A DNA stretch of 64,000 nucleotides from Sipunculus nudus (taxonomy: Eukaryota; Annelida; Sipuncula; Golfingiida; Sipunculidae). Shown piece after piece: positions 1-62,541 of this stretch. The position numbers and the translations under genes are program-made. The notes below the pieces were generated by a model that had not been told where the DNA came from, made no database searches, and worked only from the letters and a program-made list of their open reading frames with translations. Location of the stretch: positions 12,958,664-13,022,663 of the forward strand of contig CM049315.1 in the NCBI GenBank assembly GCA_026874595.1. The letters are read 5' to 3'. How positions within the stretch are numbered: position 1 is the stretch's first letter; each line of letters starts with the position of its first letter.

Positions 1-3000
1 TAACCTATAACATAATGTGGTCCCTGGTAAGGTGGATGTAACCTTTAACATGATGTGGTACCTGGTAAGGTGGATGTAACCTATAACATGATGTGGTCCC
101 TGATAAGGTGGATGTAACCTATAACATGATGTGGTCCCTGGTAAGGTGGATGTAACCTTTAACATAATGTGGTCCCTGATAAGGTGGATGTAACCTTTAA
201 CATGATGTGGTCCCTTATAAGGTGGATGTAACCTATAACATAATGTGGTACCTGGTAAGGTGGATGTAACCTATAACATAATGTGGTCCCTGGTAAGTTG
301 GATGTAACCTTTAACATGATGTGGTCCCTTACGAGGTGGATGTAACCTATAACATGATGTGGTCCCTGGTAAGGTGGATGTAACCTTTAACATGATGTGG
401 TCCCTGATAAGGTGGATGTAACCTTTAACATGATGTGGTCCCTGGTAAAGTGGATGTAACCTTTAACATAATGTGGTCCCTGGTAAGGTGGATGTAACCT
501 ATAACATAATGTGGTACCTGGTAAGGTGGATGTAACCTTTAACATAATGTGGTCCCTGATAAGGTGGATGTAACCTATAACATAATGTGGTCCCTGATAA
601 GGTGGATGTAACCTTTAACATAATGTGGTCCCTGATAAGGTGGATGTAACCTATAACATAATGTGGTCCCTGATAAGGTGGATGTAACCTTTAACATAAT
701 GTGGTCCCTGATAAGGTGGATGTAACCTTAACATAATGTGGTCCCTGATAAGGTGGATGCAACCTATAACATAATGTGGTCCCTGATAAGGTGGATGTAA
801 CCTATAACATAATGTTGTCCCTGATAAGGTGGATGTAACCTATAACATAATGTGGTCCCTGATAAGGTGGATGTAACCTTTAACATAATGTGGTCCCTGA
901 TAAGGTGGATGTAACCTATAACATAATGTGGTCCCTGATAAGGTGGATGTAACCTTTAACATAATGTGGTCCTTGATAAGGTGGATGTAACCTTTAACAT
1001 AATGTGGTCCCTGATAAGGTGGATGTAACCTATAACATAATGTGGTCCCTGATAAGGTGGATGTAACCTATAACATAATGTGGTCCCTGATAAGGTGGAT
1101 GTAACCTATAACATAATGTGGTACCTGGTAAGGTGGATGTAACCTATAACATGATGTGGTCCCTGATAAGGTGGATGTAACCTATAACATGATGTGGTCC
1201 CTGGTAAGGTGGATGTAACCTTTAACATAATGTGGTCCCTGATAAGGTGGATGTAACCTATAACATAATGTGGTCCCTGGTAAGGTGGATGTAACCTTTA
1301 ACATAATGTGGTCCCTGATAAGGTGGATGTAACCTTTAACATAATGTGGTCCCTGATAAGGTGGATGTAACCTATAACATAATGTGGTCCCTGATAAGGT
1401 GGATGTAACCTATAACATAATGTGGGTCCTGATAAGGTGGATGTAACCTATAACATAATGTGGTCCCTGATAAGGTGGATGTAACCTTTCACATAATGTG
1501 GTCCCTGATAAGGTGGATGTAACCTATATCATAATGTGGTCCCTGATAAGGTGGATGTAACCTTTAACATAATGTGGTCCCTGATAAGGTGGGTGTAACC
1601 TTTAACATAATGTGGTCCCTGATAAGGTGGATGTAACCTATAACATAATGTGGTCCCTGATAAGGTGGATGTAACCTATAACATAATGTGGTCCCTGATA
1701 AGGTGGATGTAACCTATAACATAATGTGGTACCTGGTAAGGTGGATGTAACCTTTAACATAATGTGGTCCCTGGTAAGGTGGATGTAACCTATAACATAA
1801 TGTGGTCCCTGATAAGCTGGATGTAACCTTTAACATAATGTGGTCCCTGAAAAGGTGGATGTTACCTTTAACATAATGTGGTCCCTGATAAGGTGGATGT
1901 AACCTTTAACATAATGTGGTCCCTGATAAGGTGGATGTAACCTATAACATAATGTGGTCCCTGGTAAGGTGGATGTAACCTATAACATAATGTGGTCCCT
2001 GATAAGGTGGATGTAACCTTTAACATAATGTGGTCCCTGATAAGGTGGATGTTACCTTTAACATAATGTGGTCCCTGGTAAGTTGGATGTAACCTTTAAC
2101 ATGATGTGGTCCCTTACGAGGTGGATGTAACCTATAACATGATGTGGTCCCTGGTAAGGTGGATGTAACCTTTAACATGATGTGGTCCCTGATAAGGTGG
2201 ATGTAACCTTTAACATGATGTGGTCCCTGGTAAAGTGGATGTAACCTTTAACATAATGTGGTCCCTGGTAAGGTGGATGTAACCTATAACATAATGTGGT
2301 ACCTGGTAAGGTGGATGTAACCTTTAACATAATGTGGTCCCTGATAAGGTGGATGTAACCTATAACATAATGTGGTCCCTGATAAGGTGGATGTAACCTT
2401 TAACATAATGTGGTCCCTGATAAGGTGGATGTAACCTATAACATAATGTGGTCCCTGATAAGGTGGATGTAACCTATAACATAATGTGGTCCCTGATAAG
2501 GTGGATGTAACCTTAACATAATGTGGTCCCTGATAAGGTGGATGCAACCTATAACATAATGTGGTCCCTGATAAGGTGGATGTAACCTATAACATAATGT
2601 TGTCCCTGATAAGGTGGATGTAACCTATAACATAATGTGGTCCCTGATAAGGTGGATGTAACCTATAACATAATGTGGTCCCTGATAAGGTGGATGTAAC
2701 CTATAACATAATGTGGTCCCTGATAAGGTGGATGTAACCTTTAACATAATGTGGTCCTTGATAAGGTGGATGTAACCTTTAACATAATGTGGTCCCTGAT
2801 AAGGTGGATGTAACCTATAACATAATGTGGTCCCTGATAAGGTGGATGTAACCTATAACATAATGTGGTCCCTGATAAGGTGGATGTAACCTATAACATA
2901 ATGTGGTACCTGGTAAGGTGGATGTAACCTATAACATGATGTGGTCCCTGATAAGGTGGATGTAACCTATAACATGATGTGGTCCCTGGTAAGGTGGATG

Positions 3001-5528
3001 TAACCTTTAACATAATGTGGTCCCTGATAAGGTGGATGTAACCTATAACATAATGTGGTCCCTGGTAAGGTGGATGTAACCTTTAACATAATGTGGTCCC
3101 TGATAAGGTGGATGTAACCTTTAACATAATGTGGTCCCTGATAAGGTGGATGTAACCTATAACATAATGTGGTCCCTGATAAGGTGGATGTAACCTATAA
3201 CATAATGTGGTCCCTGATAAGGTGGATGTAACCTATAACATAATGTGGTCCCTGATAAGGTGGATGTAACCTTTCACATAATGTGGTCCCTGATAAGGTG
3301 GATGTAACCTATATCATAATGTGGTCCCTGATAAGGTGGATGTAACCTTTAACATAATGTGGTCCCTGATAAGGTGGGTGTAACCTTTAACATAATGTGG
3401 TCCCTGATAAGGTGGATGTAACCTATAACATAATGTGGTCCCTGATAAGGTGGATGTAACCTATAACATAATGTGGTCCCTGATAAGGTGGATGTAACCT
3501 ATAACATAATGTGGTACCTGGTAAGGTGGATGTAACCTTTAACATAATGTGGTCCCTGGTAAGGTGGATGTAACCTATAACATAATGTGGTCCCTGATAA
3601 GGTGGATGTAACCTTTAACATAATGTGGTCCCTGATAAGGTGGATGTTACCTTTAACATAATGTGGTCCCTGATAAGGTGGATGTAACCTTTAACATAAT
3701 GTGGTCCCTGATAAGGTGGATGTAACCTATAACATAATGTGGTCCCTGGTAAGGTGGATGTAACCTATAACATAATGTGGTCCCTGATAAGGTGGATGTA
3801 ACCTTTAATATAATGTGGTCCCTGATAAGGTGGATGTAACCTATAACATAATGTGGTCCCTGATAAGGTGGATGTAACCTATAACATAATGTGGTACCTG
3901 GTAAGGTGGATGTAACCTTTAACATAATGTGGTCCCTGATAAGGTGGATGTAACCTATAACATAATGTGGTCCCTGGTAAGGTGGATGTAACCTTTAACA
4001 TAATGTGGTCCCTGGTAAGGTGGATGTAACCTATAACATAATGTGGTCCCTGGTAAGGTGGATGTAACCTTTAACATGATGTGGTCCCTTATAAGGTGGA
4101 TGTAACCTATAACATAATGTGGTCCCTGGTAAGGTGGATGTAACCTTTAACATAATGTGGTCCCTGGTAAGGTGGATGTAACCTATAACATAATGTGGTC
4201 CCTGGTAAGGTGGATGTAACCTATAACATAATGTGGTACCTGGTAAGGTGGATGTAACCTTTAACATGATGTGGTCCCTGGTAAGGTGGATGTAACCTAT
4301 AACATAATGTGGTCCCTGGTAAGGTGGATGTAACCTTTAACATAATGTGGTCCCTGATAAGGTGGATGTAACCTATAACATAATGTGGTCCCTGGTAAGG
4401 TGGATGTAACCTTTAACATAATGTGGTCCCTGGTAAGGTGGATGTAACCTATAACATGATGTGGTCCCTGGTAAGGTGGATGTAACCTATAACATAATGT
4501 GGTCCCTGATAAGGTGGATGTAACCTATAACATAATGTGGTACCTGGTAAGGTGGATGTAACCTTAAACATAATGTGGTCCCTGGTAAGGTGGATGTAAC
4601 CTATAACATGATGTGGTCCCTGGTAAGGTGGATGTAACCTATAACATGATGTGGTCCCTGGTAAGGTGGATGTAACCTTTAACATGATGTGGTCCCTGAT
4701 AAGGTGGATGTAACCTTTAACATAATGTGGTCCCTGATAAGGTGGATGTAACCTATAACATAATGTGGTACCTGGTAAGGTGGATGTAACCTTTAACATG
4801 ATGTGGTCCCTGATAAGGTGGATGTAACCTATAACATAATGTGGTACCTGGTAAGGTGGATGTAACCTTTAACATAATGTGGTCCCTGGTAAGGTGGATG
4901 TAACCTATAACATAATGTGGTCCCTGGTAAGGTGGATGTAACCTTTAACATGATGTGGTCCCTGGTAAGGTGTATGTAACCTATAACATAATGTGGTCCC
5001 TGGTAAGGTGGATGTAACCTTTAACATAATGTGGTCCCTGGTAAGGTGGATGTAACCTATAACATAATGTGGTACCTGGTAAGGTGGATGTAACCTTTAA
5101 CATAATGTGGTCCCTGATAAGGTGGATGTAACCTTTAACATAATGTGGTCCCTGGTAAGGTGGATGTAACCTATAACATAATGTGGTCCCTGGTAAGGTG
5201 GATGTAACCTTTAACATGATGTGGTCCCTTATAAGGTGGATGTAACCTATAACATGAAGTGGTCCCTGGTAAGGTGGATGTAACCTTTAACATGATGTGG
5301 TCCCTGATAAGGTGGATGTAACCTATAACATGATGTGGTCCCTGGTAAGGTGGATGTAACCTTTAACATGATGTGGTCCCTGGTAAGGTGGATGTAACCT
5401 ATAACATGATGTGGTCCCTGGTAAGGTGGATGTAACCTTTAACATGATGTGGTCCCTGATAAGGTGGATGTAACCTATAACATGATGTGGTCCCTGATAA
5501 GGTGGTTGTAACCTATAACAGGATGTGG
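1..5528. repeat. 38-bp satellite / minisatellite array, about 145 monomers
   Basis: The stretch is an uninterrupted head-to-tail array of a 38-bp monomer that begins taacctwtaacatratgtgg and ends in ggtggatg. Monomers differ at a few fixed positions: cctATaac or cctTTaac, catAatg or catGatg, ggtCcctg or ggtAcctg, and ctgGtaag or ctgAtaag. The array ends at about 5528, where sequence turns unique (tgcaatgagcaaag). It starts before the window, so its full length is unknown. The repeat is open over 70-116 codons in places on the minus strand because 38 is not a multiple of 3 and stops are rare. That is a by-product of the repeat, not coding. Confidence 0.97.
275..3830. repeat. Duplicated 1,785-bp block within the satellite (two copies of about 47 monomers)
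   Basis: Rare monomer variants recur at exactly 1,785 bp: aagttgg at 295 and 2080, cccttacgagg near 331 and 2116, gatgcaacc near 760 and 2545, aatgttgtcc at 811 and 2596, ctttcac at 1486 and 3271, gggtgtaacc at 1591 and 3376, and gatgttacc at 1860 and 3645. Copy 1 is about 275-2045 and copy 2 about 2060-3830. The two lose register at about 2050 versus 3835. The length is 47 monomers minus one base, matching a shared 1-nt deletion. Private changes (gtgggtcct near 1422) show that the copies have begun to diverge. Confidence 0.9.
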
Positions 5529-7279: not shown

Positions 7280-8720
7280 ATATAAACTAGAATATGGGTA
7301 GTCCACAAGTGATTACATGTATCCACCAAAATCAGAGTAGGACTGGTGATGTGAGGCATGGATTGAGTGGCAAGTGAAAAAAGAGTTAGATGTGTTACAT
7401 TCAAGCATGGATGTCTGCCACGTAAACATGATTGTAGGTGGCGTCATCTGTTATTTAAATGAGAAACTATCCAAAGTTTATACACATGCAAAATTTCAGG
7501 TCGAAAAGTCAAACCACTGCCGAGATATGAGTGATTTTATCCCACAGCAGACAAATAGATGGACTCTGTGCAAAAATGGTCGCAGGTGGTGTCACCAGTT
7601 TCTTGTATGATAAAGAGCTATGCGAGATCTAAACACATGCATCACTTCAGGTAGGTAGGTCAAACCAATCTGGAGATATTAGCATGGATATCTGCAGCAT
7701 GAACGTTAATGTAGGTGGCGCCACCTGTCATAAAATCAAGAAAGCTATCCAAGATGTATATGCATGCCAAATTTCAGATGAATAAGTCAAACCACTGCTG
7801 AGATATGAGAGATTTTAATCAAAATCCAACGTACTGATGGACGCTGTGCAAAAATGGTAGTAGGTGGCGCCACCAGTTTCTTGTATTATAAAGAGCTGTG
7901 TGAGATCTAAACACATTCAAATTTTCAGGAAGATACGTCAAATCAGGCTGGATATATTAGCATGGATGTCTGCAACGTGAACATGAATGTAGGTGGTGCC
8001 ACCTGTCATAAAATCAAGAAAGCTATCCAGGATGTATAAGCATGCCAATTTCAGGTGAATAAGTCAAACCACTGCTGAGATATGAGTGATTTTAACCCAA
8101 GTCAAACTTACAGATGGACGCTGTGCAAAAAATGGTTGCAGGTGGTGCCACAAGTTTTGTGTATGATAAAGAGCCATGTGAGATCTAAACACATGCAAAT
8201 TTTCAGGAAGATATGTCAAACCAGTCTGGAGATATAAGCATAGATGTCTGCAGCATGAACTTGAATGTAGGTGGCGCCACCTGTCATAAAATCGAGAAAG
8301 CTGTCCAGGATGTATACGCATGCAGAATTTCAGGTGAATTAGTCAAATAACTGCAGAGTTATGAGTCAGTTTAACTCAAGGCAGACGAACAGATGGACGC
8401 TGTGCAAAAATGTGTGTACCACCATTTTTGTGTATGTTATAAAGCTATCCAAGGGCTACATTTGTGTATAATTTTTTGTCCTGATTGGTCAAACGAGTCC
8501 GAAGATATGTGGGTTAATATGTCAAAACAGATGCACAGATGGACACAGTGAAGAGGGGAAAGGTCAGAGGTCAACCGGAATGGTTAGGCACCAGTTCACT
8601 TGTGACCCGATAATTGGTGTAAGTTTAAGAAAAATCGGTCTAGTAGTCTCAGAGTTCTCTGGAAACGAATACGGCAATGGAATCTGGTCAAAAATGTAAT
8701 ATCCACAATCACGGATACAA
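7280..8720 (-). repeat. Inverted, end-less copy of the 278-bp-unit repeat element found at 24.4-28.4 kb
   Basis: Read on the minus strand this block matches the right part of the element at 26.8-28.25 kb. Shared landmarks include gaatatgggtagtc, gaggcatggattragtggca, ataaaatcaagaaagc and the ggtcagaggtcaac region near 8565. Internal units repeat at about 277 bp, with aggtggcgccacctgtcat-type anchors near 7434, 7714, 7991 and 8268. The terminal inverted repeats of the full element are not found here. Confidence 0.8.
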
Positions 8721-21500: not shown

Positions 21501-24500
21501 AAACTTGAAAAATATGACTTTAAAAATGACTTAGACCCTGTGTACATTTCTCTTATATTATCCCAACAAGGCAGTTGATTCAAGATCAAATTCTAATGCA
21601 AACCGTGCCAGAAGCATAATTTTATTATGTCTTTTCATGTTTCTGTATTATGGTTTAACACAGCATAATAAATATGATAAATAATAAGTATCAGGATGAT
21701 CAGCTATTACGACACTATGTCCAGTGCAGACACTGCTATGTTGAATCAATGGGGGTAATAGTTGTTTGCCTGGAGTTTTTCAAGCAGGCCTCCACACACA
21801 AGAATATTGGTACTAGCGATATCTCATATTACCCTTGCCTGAGATAGGTAACTGCCCTGACTTATAACAGGGTTGACAGCTTTGTACATGCAGTTTACCC
21901 AAGCCTGGTGTTCATTTGCAGTATCACACATGTACATGGAGTACCTTATACCAGGTACAGGTACTTTAGTTCCAGGTACAAGGTACTTCCTACTCATGAC
22001 AGCCAGGTACAGGTTCTCTGAATTGTATAACTTGGTACAAGTACCTGGCCCCAGCCCTGATTCTGATAAATTTAACCAATGAAATATAACACTGGGCAGG
22101 ATAAGTTCTGAAAGTAATTTGTTAGTGGGAGACTGATCTCTGCTGGTGCTACATCAAAGGTAAAATGTCATTTGATGTCTTCAGATATGACTGACAAATA
22201 AATTAGAGTCACCCAATTCAAGAATTACAAAGGAAAGTGTGTGTGATTCTTTAATGCTTGACAGTATTAAAGTATAAGGTAAAGTGTTATTTGATGTCTT
22301 CAGATATGAGAGACAAACAGATTAGAGTCACCCAATTCAAGAATTACAAAGGAAAGTGTGTGTGATTCTTTAATGCTTGACAGTATTAAAGTATAAGGTA
22401 AAGTGTTATTTGATGTCTTAAGATATGAGAGACAAATAAATTAGAGTCACCCAATTCAAGAATTACAAAGGAAAGTGTGTGTGATTCTTTAATGCTTGAC
22501 AGTATTAAAGTATAAGGTAAAGTGTTATTTGATGTCTTCAGATATGAGAGACAAACAGATTAGAGTCACCCAATTCAAGAATTACAAAGGAAAGTGTGTG
22601 TGATTCTTTAATGCTTGACAGTATTAAAGTATAAGGTAAAGTGTTATTTGAGGCTTCAGATATGAGAGACAAATAAATTAGAGTCACCCAATTTAAGAAT
22701 TACAATGGAAAGTGTGTGTGATTCTTTAATGCTTGACAGTATTAAAGTATAAGGTAAAGTGTTATTTGATGTCTTCAGATATGAGAGACAAACAGATTAG
22801 AGTCACCCAATTCAAGAATTACAAAGGAAAGTGTGTGTGATTCTTTAATGCTTGACAGTATTAAAGTATAAGGTAAAGTGTTATTTGATGTCTTCAGATA
22901 TGAGAGACAAACAGATTAGAGTCACCCAATTCAAGAATTACAAAGGAAAGTGTGTGTGATTCTTTAATGCTTGACAGTATTAAAGTATAAGGTAAAGTGT
23001 TATTTGATGTCTTAAGATATGAGAGACAAATAAATTAGAGTCACCCAATTTAAGAATTACAATGGAAAGTGTGTGTGATTCTTTAATGCTTGACAGTATT
23101 AAAGTATAAGGTAAAGTGTTATTTGATGTCTTAAGATATGAGAGACAAATAAATTAGAGTCACCCAATTTAAGAATTACAATGGAAAGTGTGTGTGATTC
23201 TTTAATGCTTGACAGTATTAAAGTATAAGGTAAAGTGTTATTTGATGTCTTCAGATATGAGAGACAAATAGATTAGAGTCAACCAATTCAAGAATTACAA
23301 AGGAAACTGTGTGTGATTCTTTAATGCTTTACAGTATTAGAGTATATATGAATCTCTTCAGTCACAAGTAAGCTATCTGGCTTTTCATGGCCATGGACCA
23401 TACTTGAAATAAGTAAGCAAGAGTGCAGGTTATATATTCCTTTTGCTTAAGGTGACAGACCTGTTAGACCAGAAGGTTAAAGCCCTCAGGTCTAAAAAGC
23501 AAAAATGGTGTAATGTTAATATAAAACCTCAGAGATTAACTCTAATATGACATTGTCATATGACAACAGTTTGTGATGTTTTAGTTATTCCTGGTCCAGT
23601 GTATATTAAAACCTGACATCTGGAAGGCTTAATTATAACATTAATTATTATTATGATAAGGTCATTGGTCACCTTGATCCTAATTCTATGGACAGTCCCA
23701 CTGACAGACTGTGTAGCTTTCGTTTAAGTTCTTCTTTAATTAAAAAAAGTGCTAGCTATAGTCCATGAGGTATCCTGTAACTTTATATTTCAGGTATGAC
23801 AGAGAGCATACTATAATCCATGGGGTAATCTGTATCTTTACTTTATATTTCAGGTATGACTGAGAGCTTACTGTAGTCCATGGGGTAACCTGTAACTTTA
23901 TATTTCAGGTATGACTGAGAGTATACTGTGGTCCATGAGGTAACCTGTATCTTTATATTTCAGGTATGACAGAGAGCGTACTGTAGTCCATGGGGTAACA
24001 TGTAACTTAACTTTATATTTCAGGTATGACTGAGAGCATACTGGCTGCTGCTTTGGCTCGTATTGGATACAGTGTCTTGCACATTGATAGGTGAGTCTCT
24101 TTATAAGTGTTGTGTCATTTGATTAATTTGTCTTTATGTGAAATTTTTATGACTTAAACATGTCATTGACTCATTGCTGTTGCCTATGAACCAGAATATG
24201 ATTGACTATATTCTACCAAGTATATATACTTGGTCAGGTTCACCTTGCATAAGCATGTACTGGTCATAATAATTATGAATGGCACAGTCTTCCCATTGAT
24301 CAAGGGGTCACCTGTGTCATAATGGTATATAATCTTTGATTTTAAATTATTTTAAGGTGATCCAGATAACCTCCAAAATAAATTGGATAATTCTTTGAGT
24401 ATTACACAAAATTTCATCAAAATCCAATCCCAACTTTTTAGCGAACCTGTGAGCTTATGTGATGGTGCGGCGTTGTCCGTCGTGCGTCGTACGTCGTGCA

Positions 24501-27500
24501 TCGTGCGTCGTCTGTACGTTAACCATAGCTATCTCAAAAACGGCACGACCTAGCATCACCAAATTTTTTGCAAATAATCAGTCATCCAAAAAACTATATC
24601 GGATTTTGTTTATTATTTTTTTTAACTGCATTTTTTTAGATTTTATAGGGAAAAAGCTAAAAAAGCTTTAAAAATCTTCTTCTCCGAAACTGTCCAGCCA
24701 AATTGTCCAATATTTCACAGAAATGATCCCTGGAACAATCGTTCTCAAGTTTGTTCGAATGGTTCCAGTTCGGAGATTTTTGGTCGAGTTACAGGAGGTT
24801 GAACTTTGTTAACTGTGCAATAAAGCATATTAAAATTTAAATCTCAGAAATGGCTGGAGCTATCATCACCAAATTTTATGCCAATGTTGGTCACATAGGT
24901 CATATCTGAAATTGAGGTATTGATGGCGCCACCTGCATCGGCCTTTTTTGTACGGGGTCATCAGTGCCTGTATCACACTGAGGGCTACAATAAACTTCTT
25001 CTCTGAAACCATATGGCCAAAATGTTTAATATCGCACAGAAATGATCCTAGGGTAGTGCTTTCTGAAGTTTGTTCAAATGGTCTCTTTTCAGTGACTTTT
25101 AGCCAAGTTATGGGAAGCTGAATTTAGTCATATGCCATAACAGCCCATTTTAGCTCAGTGGCTACAAAGATCTTCTTCTCAAAAACCACTTGGCCAAATT
25201 CTTAAATCTAACACATTAATTATCCTCAGATGTTGATAATTTAAGTTTGTTCAAATGGTTTTGGTTCAGTGCTTTTTGGCTGAGTTACAGGAAGCTGAAC
25301 TTAGCCAGTTTGCTGTATCTTCCTATATGAGTTATACACCTACGAAACGTTTTTTGACTGATGCCACTGAAGCCAGTTTGTTAAGTATTTTACAAGAATA
25401 ATTCCTACAATAATTCTTATAATAATTGTTATTAATGGTTCCACATGAATGATATTTGGCTGAATTATGGAGATTGAATTGAGTCATTTTACCATATATG
25501 TTAGCTGTGTTATGCTGTTACATCTAGCCTGGCACCAGTTTATCAGCATCTATTACATCATGCCACTAGACATTTAGATTTCAGGTTATATTTGGTTAAT
25601 ATTGACAAAACAGTTTTTTTTAAAGCTTTTAAAAAAAATTTAGAATTGTGATTTAAGTTATTCATTATACCAGGCAATGTTACAATCATGGATATTCAGC
25701 TCTCTGTGGCTATATAAAGACAACTGTGCGTGGATTATAAATTATTGGTATCCCTACTCAACCTAATTCAAGAATTTGCCATCAATGAGATATATCTGTA
25801 TTTTAATTTTGCATTCAGTATGCATCTGTAATAAATTTACATATATTCCTGATTTCTTTTTTATAAAAAGTCAGCTGAAAAGCATTTTGTATTGGTAAAA
25901 TAAATTTCAAAGTTATTTCAAGTAGGAACCACTTTTGTGTACAGATGGCAGCACTGGGTTTACCATTGGCAGATTGCCAGTGCCTTGATGTTGGCCATTA
26001 GCCTAGATGATGTCAGCTCTATAAATAGTTTTGGCACAGTGCCAGGATTGAAAAAAAGGGCAGCCAGGTAGAGGTCAAGAGTTCACTCAGTGCAGTAGCT
26101 GCATTCTATTTATAGCTTTGTAAGACTGCTAACTGCATCATATTTGACACCAAAGTTCAGCCTGAATCTATTTATAGCTTTGGCAGACTGCCAACTGTGT
26201 CAGATTATGCAATAGGTCAAGAGTTCACTCAGTGCAGCCAGGTACAGGTCAAAAGTTCACTCAGTCTAGCCAGGTGCAGGTCAAGAGTTCACTCAGTGCA
26301 GTAGCTTGAGGCAGCAATTTGTCACAGGTCACTCGGGGGCAACTGCCTTCCTCACCTTAGCCTTGTCAGCCTCAACTCTGGGGAAGTTTGATGTATTGGA
26401 CTGATATTTTGATCTGTCTATGCGTCTTTTATGGTATTCTTATTTACAAGACAGGTGGTGGCACCTACATTGAATTTGATACATCAGCCTAAAATTTGGC
26501 ATGTTTATACATATCGGGTAGCTTTATAGTGTACAAGACTGGTGGCGCCACCTACAATAATTTTTGCACAGTGTATGTCCCTGCTTATTTCACAGGAGGG
26601 GTTTGACATATCAGTCTGACATTGGGCATATTTATATATCTCTTTGTTGTATATAAGATTGGTGGTGCCAGCTACAATCATTGTATCCACCAAAACAGAG
26701 TTTTGCGGATACTATGTTTTCAGTCGGACGCTGACGCTGCCGCCATCGCCGCATAGGTTTCAGGAGAACTCCTCCATAACCAATGGGCATAATTTTTAAA
26801 ATTTGGAAATATGATCGGTCACATGTGAACTGCTGCGCCCATTTTTTTTGTTGACCTCTGACCTTTCCTCTCTGCCCAGCGACCATTTGTGCATCTGTTT
26901 CCACACATAAACCCACATATCTCGGGAACTGTTTGACCGATCAGGCTTAAAATTTTGCACAAATGTAGCCCTTTGATAGCTTTATAACATACACTAAAAA
27001 TGGTGGCGCCAACTGCAACCATTTTTGCACAGGGTCCATCTGTTCATCTGCTTTGGGATAAAATCACTCATATCTCAGCAGTGGTTTGACTTTTCCACCT
27101 GAAATTTTGCAGGTTTATACGTCCTGGACAGCTTTCTCGATTTTATGAAGGTGGCGCCACCTACATTCACGTTTACTCTGCAGACATCCAAGCTCATATC
27201 TCGGGAACCTTTTGACTGATTGAGCCAAAATTTTGCATGTGTATAGATCTCACATAGCTTTTCATCATAGGCAAAACTGGTGGCGCTACCTGCAACCATT
27301 TATGCACAGCATCCATCTGTTCATCTGCCTTGGGATAAAATCACTCATTTCTTAGCCGAGGTTTGACTTTTCCACCTAAAATTTTGCAGGTTTATACATC
27401 CTGGACAGCTTTCTAGATTTTATGACAGGTGGAACCACCGACATTCACATTTACTATGCAGACATCCAAGCTCATATCTTGGAAACCGTTTGACTGATTG

Positions 27501-30500
27501 GGCCAAAATTTTGCTTGTGTATAGATCTCTCATAGCTCTTTACATAGTCAAAACTGGTGGCGCCACCTGCAACCCTTTATGCACAGCGTCCATCTGTTCA
27601 TCTGCCTTCGGATAAAATCACTCATATCTCAGCAGTGGTTTGACTTTTCCACCTGAAATTTTGCAGGTTTATACATCCTGGACAGCTCTCTTGATTTTAT
27701 GACAGGTGGCGCCACCTACATTCAGGTTTACTCTGCAGACATCCAAACTTATATCTCAGGAACCGTTTGACTGATTGGGCCAAAATTCTGCTTGTTTATA
27801 GATCTCACATAGCTTTTCATCATAGGCAAAACTGGTGGCGCCACCTGCAACCACTTATGCACACTGTCCATCTGTTCATCTGCCTTGGGATAAAATCACT
27901 CATATCTCAGAAGTGGTTTGACTTATCAACCTGAAATTTTGCAGGTTTATACATCCTGGACAGCTCTCTTGATTTTGTGACAGGTGGTGCCACCTACATT
28001 CAGGTTTACTCTGCAGACATCCAAACTCATATCTCGGGAACCGTTTGACCGATTGGGCCAAAATTCTGCTTGTGTATAGATCTTACATTGCTCTTCATCA
28101 TAGGCAAAACTGGTGGTGCAACCTGCAACCAATCCATCCATGTTGATATGCAACACACCTCACTCTTTTCCCCTTGCCACTTAATCCATGCCTCACTTTA
28201 CCCGTCCCACTCTGATTTCTGCGGACACACAGTCGCTTGTTGACTACCCATATTCTAGTTTTAAAATGTCCTAGTCTGAAACTTGCAGGTCCGAAACATC
28301 CATTTTGCTGAAATCATAATGACTAAGGTAGATATGCAGGACTTAAGAGGATCAAAATTAAATTTAAAAAATAAACCTCCATTCATACTCCCAATCTTTG
28401 CACAGGTTCGCATTAGGCCTGTAGGCCTTGTTTTGTGTAATGTTGCTGGCAGAGGAACAAACCAACAAACCAAGGGAAATACATAATAACTTCCTGGTAG
28501 AGGTAAAATAAGAGGAGACTTACAAACATGTTTATTTTAGATATATTCTGGTACATATGATAAATAGATAATTGATAATTACAATATTCTTTTTTTTAAC
28601 ATTAAATAACATTTGGTAAATTAAATAAAATTGAGTAAATTAAGTTTTCCTGTTTACATTTATTTTAGATTTTGAACAAAATTGTAACATTATTCATATA
28701 CATCACATAGCATTTTTTATAGCTTTTGTTGTATCTAAACAAAGTTGTAACAGTTCTCACTGAGAGAGTTTGGTTGAAGTTATTGGGAATCTGTTTTTCA
28801 TAAAAATAAATATGTAATATGTACCAGAGAGAATTTATCCATCTGAGGGTGTTCTGTGTGTCAATTTTAAGTATGCTTTATTAAGCCTGTAAACACTGAG
28901 GGTTAATTAATTATTATATAATAAAGATTTTAAATTTGACATGGTTAAGTGTGATGAAAATGAGTTTTCCATTGTTTGCATTGTTTCCTTGCAAATAGTG
29001 GTGTTTATTTGTTTTTATCACTAGCAGAGACATCTGTTTGCAATCATTTTATAAATTCTGCTTAAGATAATAAAAAATATACAGATATTAAATATACAAC
29101 TATACTCTGTCAATTTGGAAAGTTGGCCATTATTTTGTTCTTAATGATTAATTATTTTAATCTAGAATTTCCTTTTTGCTCTTATTATTGTAGAAATGAC
29201 CATTACAGTGATGAATGGGCCTCCTTTCACTTCCAGGGACTTCAAGACTGGATTAAAACTGTGCAGGTACTTCATCATCAGGCTTTGTTGTAAAGATATG
29301 ATGATTTTAGTATTTCAGAAAAGAAAAATTGAATAATTAAAATATATTTGCATATTATGTATTCCTTTTTATCATCATGGCATCAACACCTGTATCAAAA
29401 ACCCTTTACTGCCAATAGTGCCCAGTGGGTCTCTAAAGTGTTCTAAAAATGGGCACCTAGAATTCCCTCATTAGCCTAGATTCTTGGATGTAAAACATAT
29501 TGAATACTTATTTTGCAGTTATAAACTAAATCAACCCCACTCTTTAGTGAGTGTTGAAAATTTTGTAAATATACAACAAAACTGGTGAAGATATCTACTG
29601 TAATATAAAGGTAAATGTTGTCAGAATTTGTCCCAATTCTAAAATAAATCTAAACCATAATGGATCAAAGACTGTATTACTGTTAATAACACATTAATAT
29701 ATATATTTGATTGGTGATAGGATTTGGTGATCCTTAGTTTTATTAAATATTAGAATAAATGGTACCTTTGGATTTAATCAGAGTGCACAGAATTTACACT
29801 TGTAGGAAAGTGACCTGTAGTTTTCTGACTCTACTAGTTTGTCTGGTGTTTTACCTTTCTATTCAAAATCTATGTCATATGTGATATTTAATGTAATTGA
29901 GCAATACTGTCTTGTCATATTTGGTAGAATTTCAAAATATAAAGTGTTAAGGGGAACAAAACATCATTTTTCATACATTCTCCAACATAACTTAGTGTAA
30001 TGTCATACAAACAGGATGGCCCGACTCCCCTGAAGTCTCCTTCATGCCAGGAGGTGGCAGCATTGTTACAAGATGCTGAGAGCACCATTCCTCTGCATCC
30101 TGCATCCCCGGATGTCAGAAATCTAGTTCTAAGGGTTTATGTCAAGTGAGTACTTTAATAAAGCTATTTAAATGTGTAATTAAAGACTTAAATTCCTAAT
30201 ATTTCAGTCATCTGGTAATATAATCATTGCATTAGTGTAATTTCATCAGGTGTAACTAGAATTACCAGATTACATAAATCATATATTTTTCCCTAATGTA
30301 AGAGGTTAAAGTGTCTTTAAGATAAAACTGATTTTACTGTTTCATCCTTTGGTAAACAGGTTATTCTGTGGATGTAGGACATGTATATTTGTCTATTGTG
30401 CATCAAGGAAATATTACATACAGTTAGAACTTTCCAATTACACACTGGGCAGAATTTGGATTTTCTGCTCATAATAAATGGTGCTTTATTTCAGAGATCA

Positions 30501-43375: not shown

Positions 43376-46300
43376 CTATCCAGCTTTGACTTCCTTAACG
43401 TGCATGAGGGAACACGTATTTAATATATTAGATTTATTGGTTAATATTTCATATACGGAAAGTATTAATTGGTCTTCTTCTTTTTCTTCTTCTATAATGA
43501 TCTTTTCGGCGTTTCTACAGCTTTCGCCTCTGCAATCTCCACATGCAGTAACACATTTGAGACCATTTTTGCGGCATGAACAGACAATTGTTCCGCACGG
43601 GTTTTTGGTCGACAGTCTACATTTGCACGTTATAAACTTAAGAATGCTGTCTGGTTCTGCAGCCAAATCCGTCATCAGTGGCGTGAGGCTGTTACCTAAC
43701 AATTTCCACCCCCAGTGCTCAGGGTCCAGTTCGTTGTTGTTCAGTTTCTTCCAAATCATCACCTGCAGGTGGACCCGTAAACTGTGAAAATGTGCTGCTC
43801 TTTCTGTAGGTGGTAGTTTCTGGGGATCAAGTGATGTTTTGCATGTTGAAATCATTTCCATGAATTTAGCATACCGCAGACTGTTCAAGGACTCACCTTC
43901 TCTGCCACCACAGAGTAGCACAAACAATCGGATGCCAGCTTTGCCGATTTCATCTGGTGACATCTTAGGATCATCCATTATACATGATATCTGCTGTATT
44001 ACCTCGGACTGTTTCATCTTTGAAAGAAAACTAGTTTTGTCCTGGCCAAAAGTGACAGAAGTAGTATCACAAACAGTCCATGCATGAAGAAACAATATGT
44101 GTTTTGTGACTGTTTTGCCAGCCTTGTTGACAAGATCACATATTTTCCATGATTTATTGGCCTTCTGTTTCACAGACGATTTTGCCTCAGACTTGAAACA
44201 TATATCTGCCATATCTTCATTCCAGTGGTACATCAAGAGAACTAGCAGGTCAGTGTCATCTGCTTCAACGGTGACTTCTCTACCCTGTGTTGCATACTGA
44301 AGAGCACACGCAACTATCTTGGTGTCAGCGTCTCCTGTGCTGACATGTACAATTTTACCATCATCTTGCAGGGAGCGACACAGCAATGAGATGAACTGTG
44401 CCTTGTTTTTCTCATTTGTAAGAAAAAGATCTGCTGGTTGTTGTGGGCCATCATAGATTCACTGAGGAATATATCCGCACACGTCTTGCCAAGTCTTCTT
44501 ACATGCTCGTGGTCTTTGATTGATGGGCTCTGACCATAGCCATCAAATACGACACAGCAGTCTCCGTACTTGGTCTGAACATAATCTACATATTGGTTGG
44601 CTATGTCTTTGTGCGTTGTTTTTTTTTTCATCCATTTTACCCTATGCAAAAGTGCCCCGCCATCAAGCACATGTATGGCCTCTTTAGTAAGCTCACATGG
44701 CTTCACACCTGAAGTCAGGAATTTAGCTAGCTGGGCCTTTGCTGGTTTTCGAATAGCATCATTTTTGAATAAAGAGGTTGGCACTGCTGTCAGTTCATAA
44801 TCAAAATACGGTGCCATATTTCCTGTCTCTGTACTATAGCAATCAGGCGAGGAAATAAAATATTTGGATCGATTTGAACCTTCTGCTTGTCAACTTTGAC
44901 CCCAGTGTACAAATGATCCAATGCTCGAGCTTGCTCGCTTCTTTCAATGGATGCCTTCGTGACACTCATATTGTCGAGTTGTTTGTAGATTTTTGCCCCA
45001 ACCTCCTCTGTCTGATGCCAGTTCAAATCCTCCTGAACCTGCCTGAAGCACTTAAACCAGAAGACAAAGAACGCAGTTTCTGTTCGTTCACATCAAAGGG
45101 GTCATGATGCTTGAACCATGTCTGGATGTTGTTCAGGTCTTTGAAATAACGCTGACATTTGGATTTTCCTTGAACCATGTCTGGTTGTTGTTCAGGTCTT
45201 TGAAATCACGCTGACATTTGGATTTTCCTAGCTCAATGTGTTGCTGCTCACTGGAGTCTAGCTTCATGTTAGTCAGCGTCGTCATGCCCTCATGGACTTC
45301 AGTACATTTGTGCATACTGTAGATCCACTACAGGCGGACGGACTCGGTCATGCCTCTTCCTCTGGTCAGTCCTCCTCGACTCTTGATAGACCGCATCATG
45401 ACTTGTTCAATGGTTAGATCCATCCAAAGACCTGCCCAGTATCTTCTAGTTCTGCGGACAGTGTGAAATCCATCCTCGGCGAAACAGTTACACAGCCAAG
45501 GATAGTCATTGGGCAAATCTTGCATCATTTGCAGATAAAGACGTGCACTTTTTGCATAGTTGGCCACCTGTCATAAAATGGCCAGTAGCAGTAAATAAAT
45601 TCAACATCCTACCAACCGCGATGAGATGAAGACTCCAATCTCTTGTCCTTTCAGCTCTAATGAATAACTTAAGAGTTTCAACATATTCTATATACTGCAA
45701 CCAAAGCCTTCTTGTTGGCGACCTGTCTGCAAGCATTGCTTTATATTTCGCCAAGCAGATCTCCAATTTACAAATTCATTTGATTCAAAGATGCAAGGAA
45801 CTGGTATAGATTTATCTCTTACTCCGTCATACAAAGCTTTCATCTTCTTTGTTTCTGTTTCATCAAGTTCATCCTCTAGGATTGTGATGTCTCTCTCCAT
45901 CTCTCCAAGATTCTTGTCATTTGGTCCATTATCTACACAGGTATGCTCAATGGAAGATGCATGCCCGACTCCACTGTCTCATACATGTTCTGCAAGTGGA
46001 TGCTCATCTATTTTTGTAAATGTGAAAGCTTGGTTCCCATTATGCAAGGCACATGGAACTTTTCCCATAAAATGCTGGTTCATTAAAGCGGCCTCCACCA
46101 TAAAATGCCCACGTAACGCCCTAGAAATTGCCTTTCCTGACATCATATGATGATCTGCATTTGGTCCATATACGATTTCTAGTGCCTCCTCTAATCCTGA
46201 ACCTTTCATCATGGATCCAATGCGACCAAGGAAACCCATCATTGTATGAAATCTGCCAAGTCTGCAAACTATCTTCATTGAATTAGCAGTAATTATTTCC

Positions 46301-61132: not shown

Positions 61133-61169
61133 GTCACATGACCGAGAGTCTCGTGTGTGTATATAAAGG
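61133..61169 (+). promoter_or_regulatory. Core promoter of the E2 gene: M-box-like E-box plus TATA box
   Basis: GTCACATGAC at 61133-61142 is the reverse complement of the GTCATGTGAC found at 18382. A TATA box, tatataaagg, starts at 61160. A start site near 61190 would leave a 5' UTR of about 30 nt before the ATG at 61221. Confidence 0.65.
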
Positions 61170-61220: not shown

Positions 61221-62541
61221 ATGGCCTGTAGTAACTTTACAAAACGGGTGACCCAGGAACTGGCCCAGCTCATGAAAAACGTGAACAGTTTCACGAATGG
61301 CCAGGTCGAAATTATCCCTGGCAATGAACTTACCGAAATTTCACTCTTCATTCGGCCAAATGATGGCCCATACAAACACGGAACGTTCAAATTCATGGCA
61401 AGTATATACTCGGCACTCATATTAGGCATACATATACCACATATATATTTAATCTTAATAAATTGTCCACTTTTTACACTTATTTCTCAATGCAGACTTC
61501 CCAAGCCTGCAGAATGTTTTTACAATTATTTCCCCAGGCTGATGTAATATGTATACAGTCAAATATCAATTGATATTAAACATTCAGTACTCACGCACAT
61601 ATACTAATAGTTTATTTAAAGTTTGAACTGTAAATTAACTTAATGAGCCCCCCCCCCCCCTTCCCAAATGATTTGTAAATATTTGTATAAATTTACCAGA
61701 TCATGTGTTGCAATTGGTGTATCCCTATACGTTCAAATATTTTACATGCTCATTTTTACATGCACAGTCAAATACTTTTTGTGTTATTTTTTTTTTATTT
61801 GTTTATTTTTATGTAATGAAGTCATCAACAAATTCCTGGAACTGAAGGCAAATATATTTAATCTTATCTTAATACTCCTATTGCCCAACTAATTTTACAT
61901 TTTCCTTATTACAGATCGATCTGAACGAGAACTACCCACGTGAGCCGCCAATTGTGATAGCACAGACGCATATCTTTCACCCTAATATATACCTGGAAAT
62001 AGACGAGGACGGCGGGCTGTCTGAAGGCGGCATCTGCTTCAGTCTCTTCAGCTCAGACTGGGAGGAAAATCTAACGTTAGAAGACGTCGTGCAAGGACTG
62101 CTATTCTTGTTATATAACCCGAACAGGGAAGATCCTCAATTAGGTTTCTTTGCCGATTACACGGACGAAGAATTCTTGAACCAAGTGCACAGATCCCTTC
62201 TTGGGGAAGAAGTTAAAGGCATTCAGTATCCAAGAAACTTTAACGGCCCGGAACATAGTGTACCCGGCGCTGACAAACAAAGTGAGAGTGAACTTGAACA
62301 AATGGACACTGATTGCACGTGTGAACAAATAGCTGAAAATATCCCGAATGGGTGCGCTCAGGGATCCTTTACAACTGTTCCGCTGAATAAGCAATCGAGC
62401 AACGCATGCTCATTCACTGTGGATAGGCCCAGTCTCTGCAGGTCACAGACTATGCCCGTGTTCCAGCATACGGGGTTTGGCGTCAGCAGTTACATGAACT
62501 ATGTGACGTCACTGCATTCACAGCGATCTCATGTGTGGTGA
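61221..62541 (+). CDS. E2 ubiquitin-like conjugating enzyme, UBE2M/UBE2F-like, two exons, 267 aa
   Basis: E2s carry ubiquitin or a ubiquitin-like protein on an active-site cysteine and pass it on with an E3. Exon 1 is 61221-61397 (59 codons) and exon 2 is 61915-62541, phase 0. The UBC fold spans about residues 7-155: FTKRVTQEL helix 1, IRPNDGPYKHGTFKF beta strands, YPREPP (66-71), HPN (81-83), GGICFSLF with Cys100 as catalytic residue, then DWEENLTLEDVV and NPNREDP (127-133). This layout matches NEDD8 E2s (HPN...VCLNIL...DW...L..I...L..L...PNPEDP). HPN-to-Cys spacing is 17 residues (Asn to Cys) instead of about 8, because of an acidic, Gly-rich insertion (89-98). The C-terminal 110 residues are polar with no recognised domain. 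The intron donor is GC (ATG|gcaagt) and the only GT nearby breaks the frame. Which modifier it uses is unknown. Confidence 0.85.

Follow-up and report, generated by a model that had tools for sequence, protein, structure and literature searches.

A tandem family of UBE2M-like E2 genes with a lengthened acidic loop before the predicted catalytic cysteine in Sipunculus nudus

Introduction

Catalytic E2 enzymes share a fingerprint consisting of an HPN motif, the catalytic cysteine, an invariant tryptophan and a CES/D residue, as set out in an excerpt of PMC4604453. The NEDD8 E2s bear in addition an N-terminal docking peptide for UBA3, which in the excerpted text of PMC8028724 has 26 residues and the motif LFxL in UBE2M, and the motif MLxL in UBE2F. 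The gene described here, gene A, resembles UBE2M/Ubc12 in several respects. These proteins are its best PDB match and its tree neighbours, they share with it HPN, Cys, DW and PN.DP, and both they and A have a turn that is one residue shorter than in UBE2D3 (RPNDGPY / CPDEGFY). UBE2M differs from A in that seven residues separate HPN from the cysteine and in that the docking peptide is present. UBE2F is likewise a tree neighbour, and is a NEDD8 E2 with extra residues in an active-site loop. Unlike the insert of A, however, these residues follow the cysteine, both in alignments and in the same excerpts (PMC8028724), while the loop before the cysteine has seven residues and a docking peptide is again found.

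Two further systems bear comparison. The family 3 E2s (Cdc34, UBE2R and UBE2G) also carry acidic extra residues near their catalytic cysteine, but according to part of the text of PMC3399832 this insertion of 12/13 residues lies downstream of the cysteine, and these enzymes fall elsewhere in the tree. In Ubc9 (UBE2I), three residues located between HPN and Cys93, namely Tyr87, Ser89 and Thr91, contact the target's acceptor motif (excerpts of PMC2928739 and PMC5714883). In contrast to A, Ubc9 is a SUMO E2 with a seven-residue loop that lacks an insert, and the tree does not group the two closely.

Here we describe gene A together with the cluster to which it belongs. Our preferred reading, which we hold with modest confidence on the basis of sequence comparison, is that A, by sequence a member of a tandem family, is a catalytically competent, UBE2M-derived E2 whose active site bears an acidic flap facing the acceptor.

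Results

Gene A carries a complete E2 fingerprint and a nine-residue insert

The window, a stretch of 64,000 nucleotides (C10:12958664-13022663), contains the two-exon gene A on the plus strand within its final kilobases (Table 1). The exons join to a product of 267 amino acids, in which Pfam recognized UQ_con as the sole domain (residues 9-134, E=7.8e-22, 77.8 bits against a cut-off of 27) and in which the E2 fingerprint is complete (HPN81-83, Cys100, Trp108 and Asp132-Pro133). The splice borders of the intron read ATG/GCAAGT...TTACAG/ATC, with a GC donor where all five other intact sisters have GT at the same place. GC splice donors are able to function, and the donor of A is rare but usable.

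An earlier note on this DNA had drawn attention to the residues that separate HPN from the cysteine. Coordinates and alignment bear out its count of 16 residues between HPN (81-83) and Cys100, against 7 in UBE2M; the spacing is 7 in human UBE2M, yeast Ubc12 and UBE2D3, and MAFFT opens one nine-residue gap relative to A. The insert is therefore real, but its position had been given as residues 89-98, which is off by one or two, since MAFFT places it at E87-S95 or equivalently at 88-96. The surrounding motifs YPREPP, GGICF, DWEENL and NPNREDP are all present as described. A long C-terminal tail is present as well, although it measures 99 residues after the conserved YPRNF motif rather than about 110. 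Counted from residue 160 it comprises 108 codons, a stretch that remained open in 0.22% of its 20,000 base shuffles. AlphaFold2, applied to exon 2 of A alone, returned a mean pLDDT of 36.

Table 1. Coordinates of gene A and of the eight loci of the cluster. Positions are those of the window unless preceded by C10.
Feature	Position	Strand	Remarks
TATA-like element TATATAAAG	61160..61168	+	61 bases 5' of ATG; consensus match only
Exon 1 of A, residues 1-59, start of UBC domain	61221..61397	+	joined protein hits Pfam UQ_con from profile position 1; similar exon 1 in five intact sisters
Intron of A, GC-AG, phase 0, 517 nt	61398..61914	+	position as in five intact sisters (GT donors)
Exon 2 of A, residues 60-267 and stop	61915..62541	+	
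HPN motif of A, residues 81-83	61978..61986	+	
HPN-Cys loop of A, residues 84-99, IYLEIDEDGGLSEGGI	61987..62034	+	net charge -5; UBE2M loop 9 residues shorter
Cys100 of A, predicted catalytic cysteine	62035..62037	+	sequence and alignment
Trp108 of A, invariant E2 tryptophan	62059..62061	+	alignments
CES/D site of A, Asp132-Pro133	62131..62136	+	alignments; site as in an excerpt of PMC4604453
Family end motif GEEVKGIQYPRNF in A, residues 156-168	62203..62241	+	
C-terminal tail of A, 99 residues	62242..62538	+	no Pfam hit at E of 1 or below; sisters' tails not clearly alike
Locus A	exons 61221-61397, 61915-62541	+	open through both exons
Locus B	exons at C10 13024741 and 13031221		open through both exons
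Locus C	exons at C10 13038377, 13040134		open through both exons
Locus D	exons at C10 13067547, 13069955		open through both exons
Locus E	exons at C10 13125844, 13127127		open through both exons
Locus F	exons at C10 12798512 and 12791858	-	open through both exons
Locus G	C10 13142138, 13144697		second exon breaks frame
Locus H	C10 13154013		contains stops

Elsewhere the window holds a satellite array with a 38-bp unit (positions 1-5528, about 145 copies, 94% matches), which reaches the first base, and a tandem array of a 119-bp unit (22157-23346, 10 copies, 96% matches). Two arrays with a 278-bp period lie at 7404-8412 and 26996-28131, and their consensus units are, by eye, partly mutual reverse complements. 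On the minus strand, two overlapping open frames of 360 and 191 codons (43376-44889) gave no Pfam match above the cut-off.

The family is likely UBE2M-like by descent

Searched against the PDB on its own, A matched Ubc12 best (1.2e-18), with UBE2M at 7.3e-17. A profile built from the six intact cluster proteins matched UBE2M (5.1e-27), Ubc12 (1.3e-25) and, after more Ubc12 chains, UBE2F (5.6e-20), and with this profile the three outranked every other PDB E2. A PDB search with a mixed alignment was set aside because the alignment itself holds UBE2M and Ubc12. In a tree of 19 rows calculated without the insert, A-F formed one clade (100/97), which was joined to UBE2M/Ubc12/UBE2F (97/91); with the insert kept, the cluster and the NEDD8 E2s were joined at 98/94. 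Within the family, A pairs with B (96/92). Moving the cluster over to the other E2s comes at a cost of 3.2 log units, an arrangement that the AU test does not reject (p=0.20), so that the placement on the NEDD8 side is likely but unproven. The cluster is thus likely to be derived from UBE2M-like E2s, and the genome keeps its own UBE2M-like exon (L038) in addition to the cluster. Pfam, the PDB searches and the tree all agree with the earlier proposal that A is a diverged, possibly active E2 near UBE2M/UBE2F, its activity being a prediction from sequence.

The N-terminal region sets A apart from UBE2M and UBE2F. Upstream of its ATG are just seven open codons with no Met, and the UBC domain (Pfam position 1) starts at residue 9. 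We found no LFxL/MLxL docking peptide of the NEDD8 E2 type in exon 1 of A or in these upstream codons, a further 5' exon being possible, and no in-frame upstream Met in exon 1 of B-E. In sister F, an in-frame upstream Met would add 20 residues that contain LFLC and no LFxL/MLxL, and loss of the docking peptide in F is not certain. We consider the family likely to be UBE2M-like by descent, and do not class A as a NEDD8 E2.

Eight loci form a cluster on one chromosome

The searches covered the genome that contains the window (1.43 Gb in 153 contigs). Pfam UQ_con gave at least 51 matches, including at least seven at C10 12.79-13.15 Mb. With exon 2 of A as the query there were eight: A itself, six further ones on C10 (12.791-13.155 Mb) and a single match on C1, to an ordinary E2 (3.7e-4). 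When E served as the query, 31 candidates were scored and 20 matches were kept; 16 of these lie in the cluster or at its edge, and the remaining four are weak (best 4e-8) and fall at E2 loci on C1 and C2. No family member was seen outside the cluster in the same genome by these searches with exon 2 of A and with E, whose counts are lower bounds. In total, eight loci, A-H, span about 363 kb of one chromosome (C10). The intron position is identical in all six intact loci (A-F), and Pfam assigns UQ_con to the five intact sisters of A at 2.5e-18 to 2.9e-21, while G and H look decayed. No relatives were confirmed in viral contigs and phage records. Among the open papers listed for mollusc E2 expansion, HPN-adjacent insertions and UBE2F/UBE2M-like arrays, none showed such a family, and this silence is weak evidence that the family is undescribed.

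Past the end motif, the members diverge. The tails of A, B, E and F comprise 99, 8, 187 and 75 residues, respectively. In C and D the frame stays open for 495 and 471 codons, for the full length of which we do not claim coding; codon structure is weak towards the end of both frames, and past the UBC domain they gave no Pfam match above the cut-off. Comparing the tails of the cluster members with each other yielded nothing better than E=0.02. The tail in exon 2 of C (L014) repeats a YPWNY-like end motif twice more, near exon residues 158 and 196.

Within the cluster there is also an extra copy of exon 1 of F (L020, C10:12811214-12811393, minus strand, 92% protein identity). The pieces searched at 12.78-12.84 Mb contained no second exon 2 to go with it, and on its sequence L020 appears to be a partial duplication.

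The long loop is shared by the cluster and absent from the other E2 loci read

The loop between HPN and the cysteine has 16 residues in A, C, D and F, 15 in B, and 13 in E, G and H, and comes in four kinds by its letters. In B, a second Cys lies inside the loop at the ordinary seven-residue spacing and the homologous Cys at 15; we took the loop as 15 because the alignment sets GYVCYEIF against GGICFSLF. With this second Cys, and with Glu for Asp at its CES/D site, B may have a different active site.

For comparison we fetched 27 loci from outside the cluster (L001-L008, L037-L050 and L052-L056), a set that does not include all UQ_con matches. Fourteen gave a reading, and in all of them the spacing was 7 (12 loci) or 8 (2 loci), with none longer; at three of the loci (L039, L040 and L043) the motif reads NPN or HPH rather than HPN. 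Among the 13 loci that gave no reading, the Cys is missing from L002 and L008, L006 has YHCN (with the Cys also at a spacing of 7), and the rest show no motif in the fetched stretch. The count leaves out four pattern matches in a non-E2 context (two in L002, the first in L047, and that in L052) as well as L016, which is the same place as L001. The readings include a UBE2M-like exon (L038) and a UBE2F-like exon (L049), named by their likeness to human sequences. Both have seven residues, and so A is not an ordinary UBE2M or UBE2F that shares its loop with all relatives, an outcome that the earlier note had held open. The long loop, varied in letters and in length, is common to a tandem gene family rather than a one-off oddity.

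Among the loci without a reading, L002 (C1:56040927-56041346) is a single-exon UBE2D-like frame in which HPN is kept and Asn (GNLNLDIL) stands in place of the catalytic Cys. An intact UBE2D-like frame (L001) lies some 10 kb away, and L002 is a candidate E2 pseudoenzyme.

Charge and position of the loop

The net charge of the loop is -3 to -5 in A-F, compared to -2 in UBE2M and UBE2F. If the insert were a regulatory gate, then an acidic loop would cover or open the cysteine much as loop 7 does in Cdc34, UBE2R and UBE2G, mirrored across the cysteine. The acidity of the loop in all six intact members is compatible with such a gate, as is the behaviour of the acidic insertion in family 3 E2s, which closes over the cysteine in simulations (PMC3399832, in part), and UBE2F too has extra residues near its cysteine, after it (alignments; excerpts of PMC8028724). 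The position of the insert argues against it. The known loops follow the cysteine, whereas the insert of A precedes it, and the Cys-Trp spacing of A is ordinary. We regard a gate as possible but unlikely, and less likely than an acceptor-side flap on a competent enzyme.

Conservation of the active site

HPN, Cys and Trp are invariant in the six intact proteins, and five of the six have Asp at the CES/D site; in B, Glu replaces it. Were the family made up of pseudoenzymes, with the E2 fold kept as a binding scaffold and conjugation lost, then long tree branches, the Glu of B and the missing NAE-docking peptide of A would all find a place. The fingerprint, however, is kept almost throughout the intact members, and the same genome provides examples, in L002 and L008, of E2-like loci in which the Cys has been lost. 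Wholesale loss of activity therefore strikes us as rather improbable, and catalytic competence with an acidic acceptor-side flap remains the reading that we prefer.

Evolution of the cluster

Synonymous difference exceeded non-synonymous difference (ps > pn) in 15/15 pairs for exon 1 and in 15/15 pairs for the exon 2 core, for example 0.98 versus 0.36 for the A/E core. This measure is coarse, with synonymous change saturated in most pairs, and points to proteins that have long been kept. Three members, C, D and F, share a tract of 293-333 nt with 90-93% DNA identity that runs from the PP loop through HPN, the insert and Cys to the end motif. Synonymous difference among the three is 13-15% inside the tract versus 66-94% in exon 1. 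The 3.3-kb stretches fetched for the three genes, compared on the plus strand at E up to 1e-6, matched each other nowhere else, and a separate comparison of C with D gave one further match of 34 nt. Some 250-280 kb separate F, which has the opposite orientation, from C and D. On these sequences, the tract is best explained by gene conversion rather than by selection on the protein. Other pairs show different patterns. E and H share one tract of 247 nt (86%) and G and H two tracts at 83%, while the match between E and G is broken into three parts across about 2.2 kb (68-75%), a pattern that fits plain segmental duplication.

These data bear on the view that the loci are neutral debris, that is, slowly decaying duplicates in which loop length drifted without function. 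Decay is visible in the cluster: two of the eight loci contain stops or a frame break, the donor of A is GC, and the extra exon 1 copy of F has no exon 2 that we could find. Yet six loci, A among them, have both exons open, ps exceeds pn in 30/30 comparisons, every intact member has an acidic loop, and this loop is held nearly identical in three of them by the conversion-like tract. We therefore consider debris improbable.

The earlier note had raised the possibility that the insert is spliced out. We scanned exon 2 of A for GT/GC-AG introns of at least 21 nt that start in the exon, end before the Cys codon and keep the frame. All five candidates start before HPN and none takes out just the loop, so that no in-frame intron of this kind drops the loop while leaving HPN. 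A gene-model or assembly artefact, in which intron sequence has been read as the insert or unrelated exons have been joined, can be set aside as very improbable, since we found no point in its support, suitable splice sites are absent, the eight loci agree, and the intron position is the same in the five other intact genes.

Discussion

We return to the reading of A as a competent, UBE2M-derived E2 with an acidic acceptor-side flap. In this scheme, A would take a ubiquitin-like modifier as a thioester on Cys100 and then pass the modifier on. It is doubtful that NAE alone charges A, because A lacks the NAE-docking peptide; charging by UBA1 or another E1 would be possible. As to the insert, we take it to open the HPN-Cys strip next to the position of Ubc9 Ser89, and Tyr85 of A presumably occupies the place of Ubc9 Tyr87. 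Because the insert falls inside the strip that contacts the acceptor in Ubc9, we assign the putative flap to the acceptor side of the active site, where it would choose or steer acceptor lysines. The C-terminal tails, being unlike, could each recruit other targets or partners.

Loops and tails that vary, together with the apparent death of genes and the conversion-like tract, suggest that the cluster may have a role in conflict or defence. A broader picture, which we offer as speculation and think rather unlikely in its entirety, is that of a lineage-specific array of UBE2M-derived E2s outside the NEDD8 pathway. Each enzyme would combine an acidic acceptor-side loop, partly homogenized by conversion, with an N-terminal part and a tail peculiar to it, target choice would have moved from E3 to E2, and the array would supply diversifying, E3-independent enzymes, perhaps for defence or genetic conflict.

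A natural lengthening of the HPN-Cys segment to 13-16 residues, with the rest of the fingerprint kept and with A lacking a docking peptide, provides a test of how much change an E2 active site tolerates. The cluster as a whole is a test case for whether the choice of target can reside in the E2 itself.
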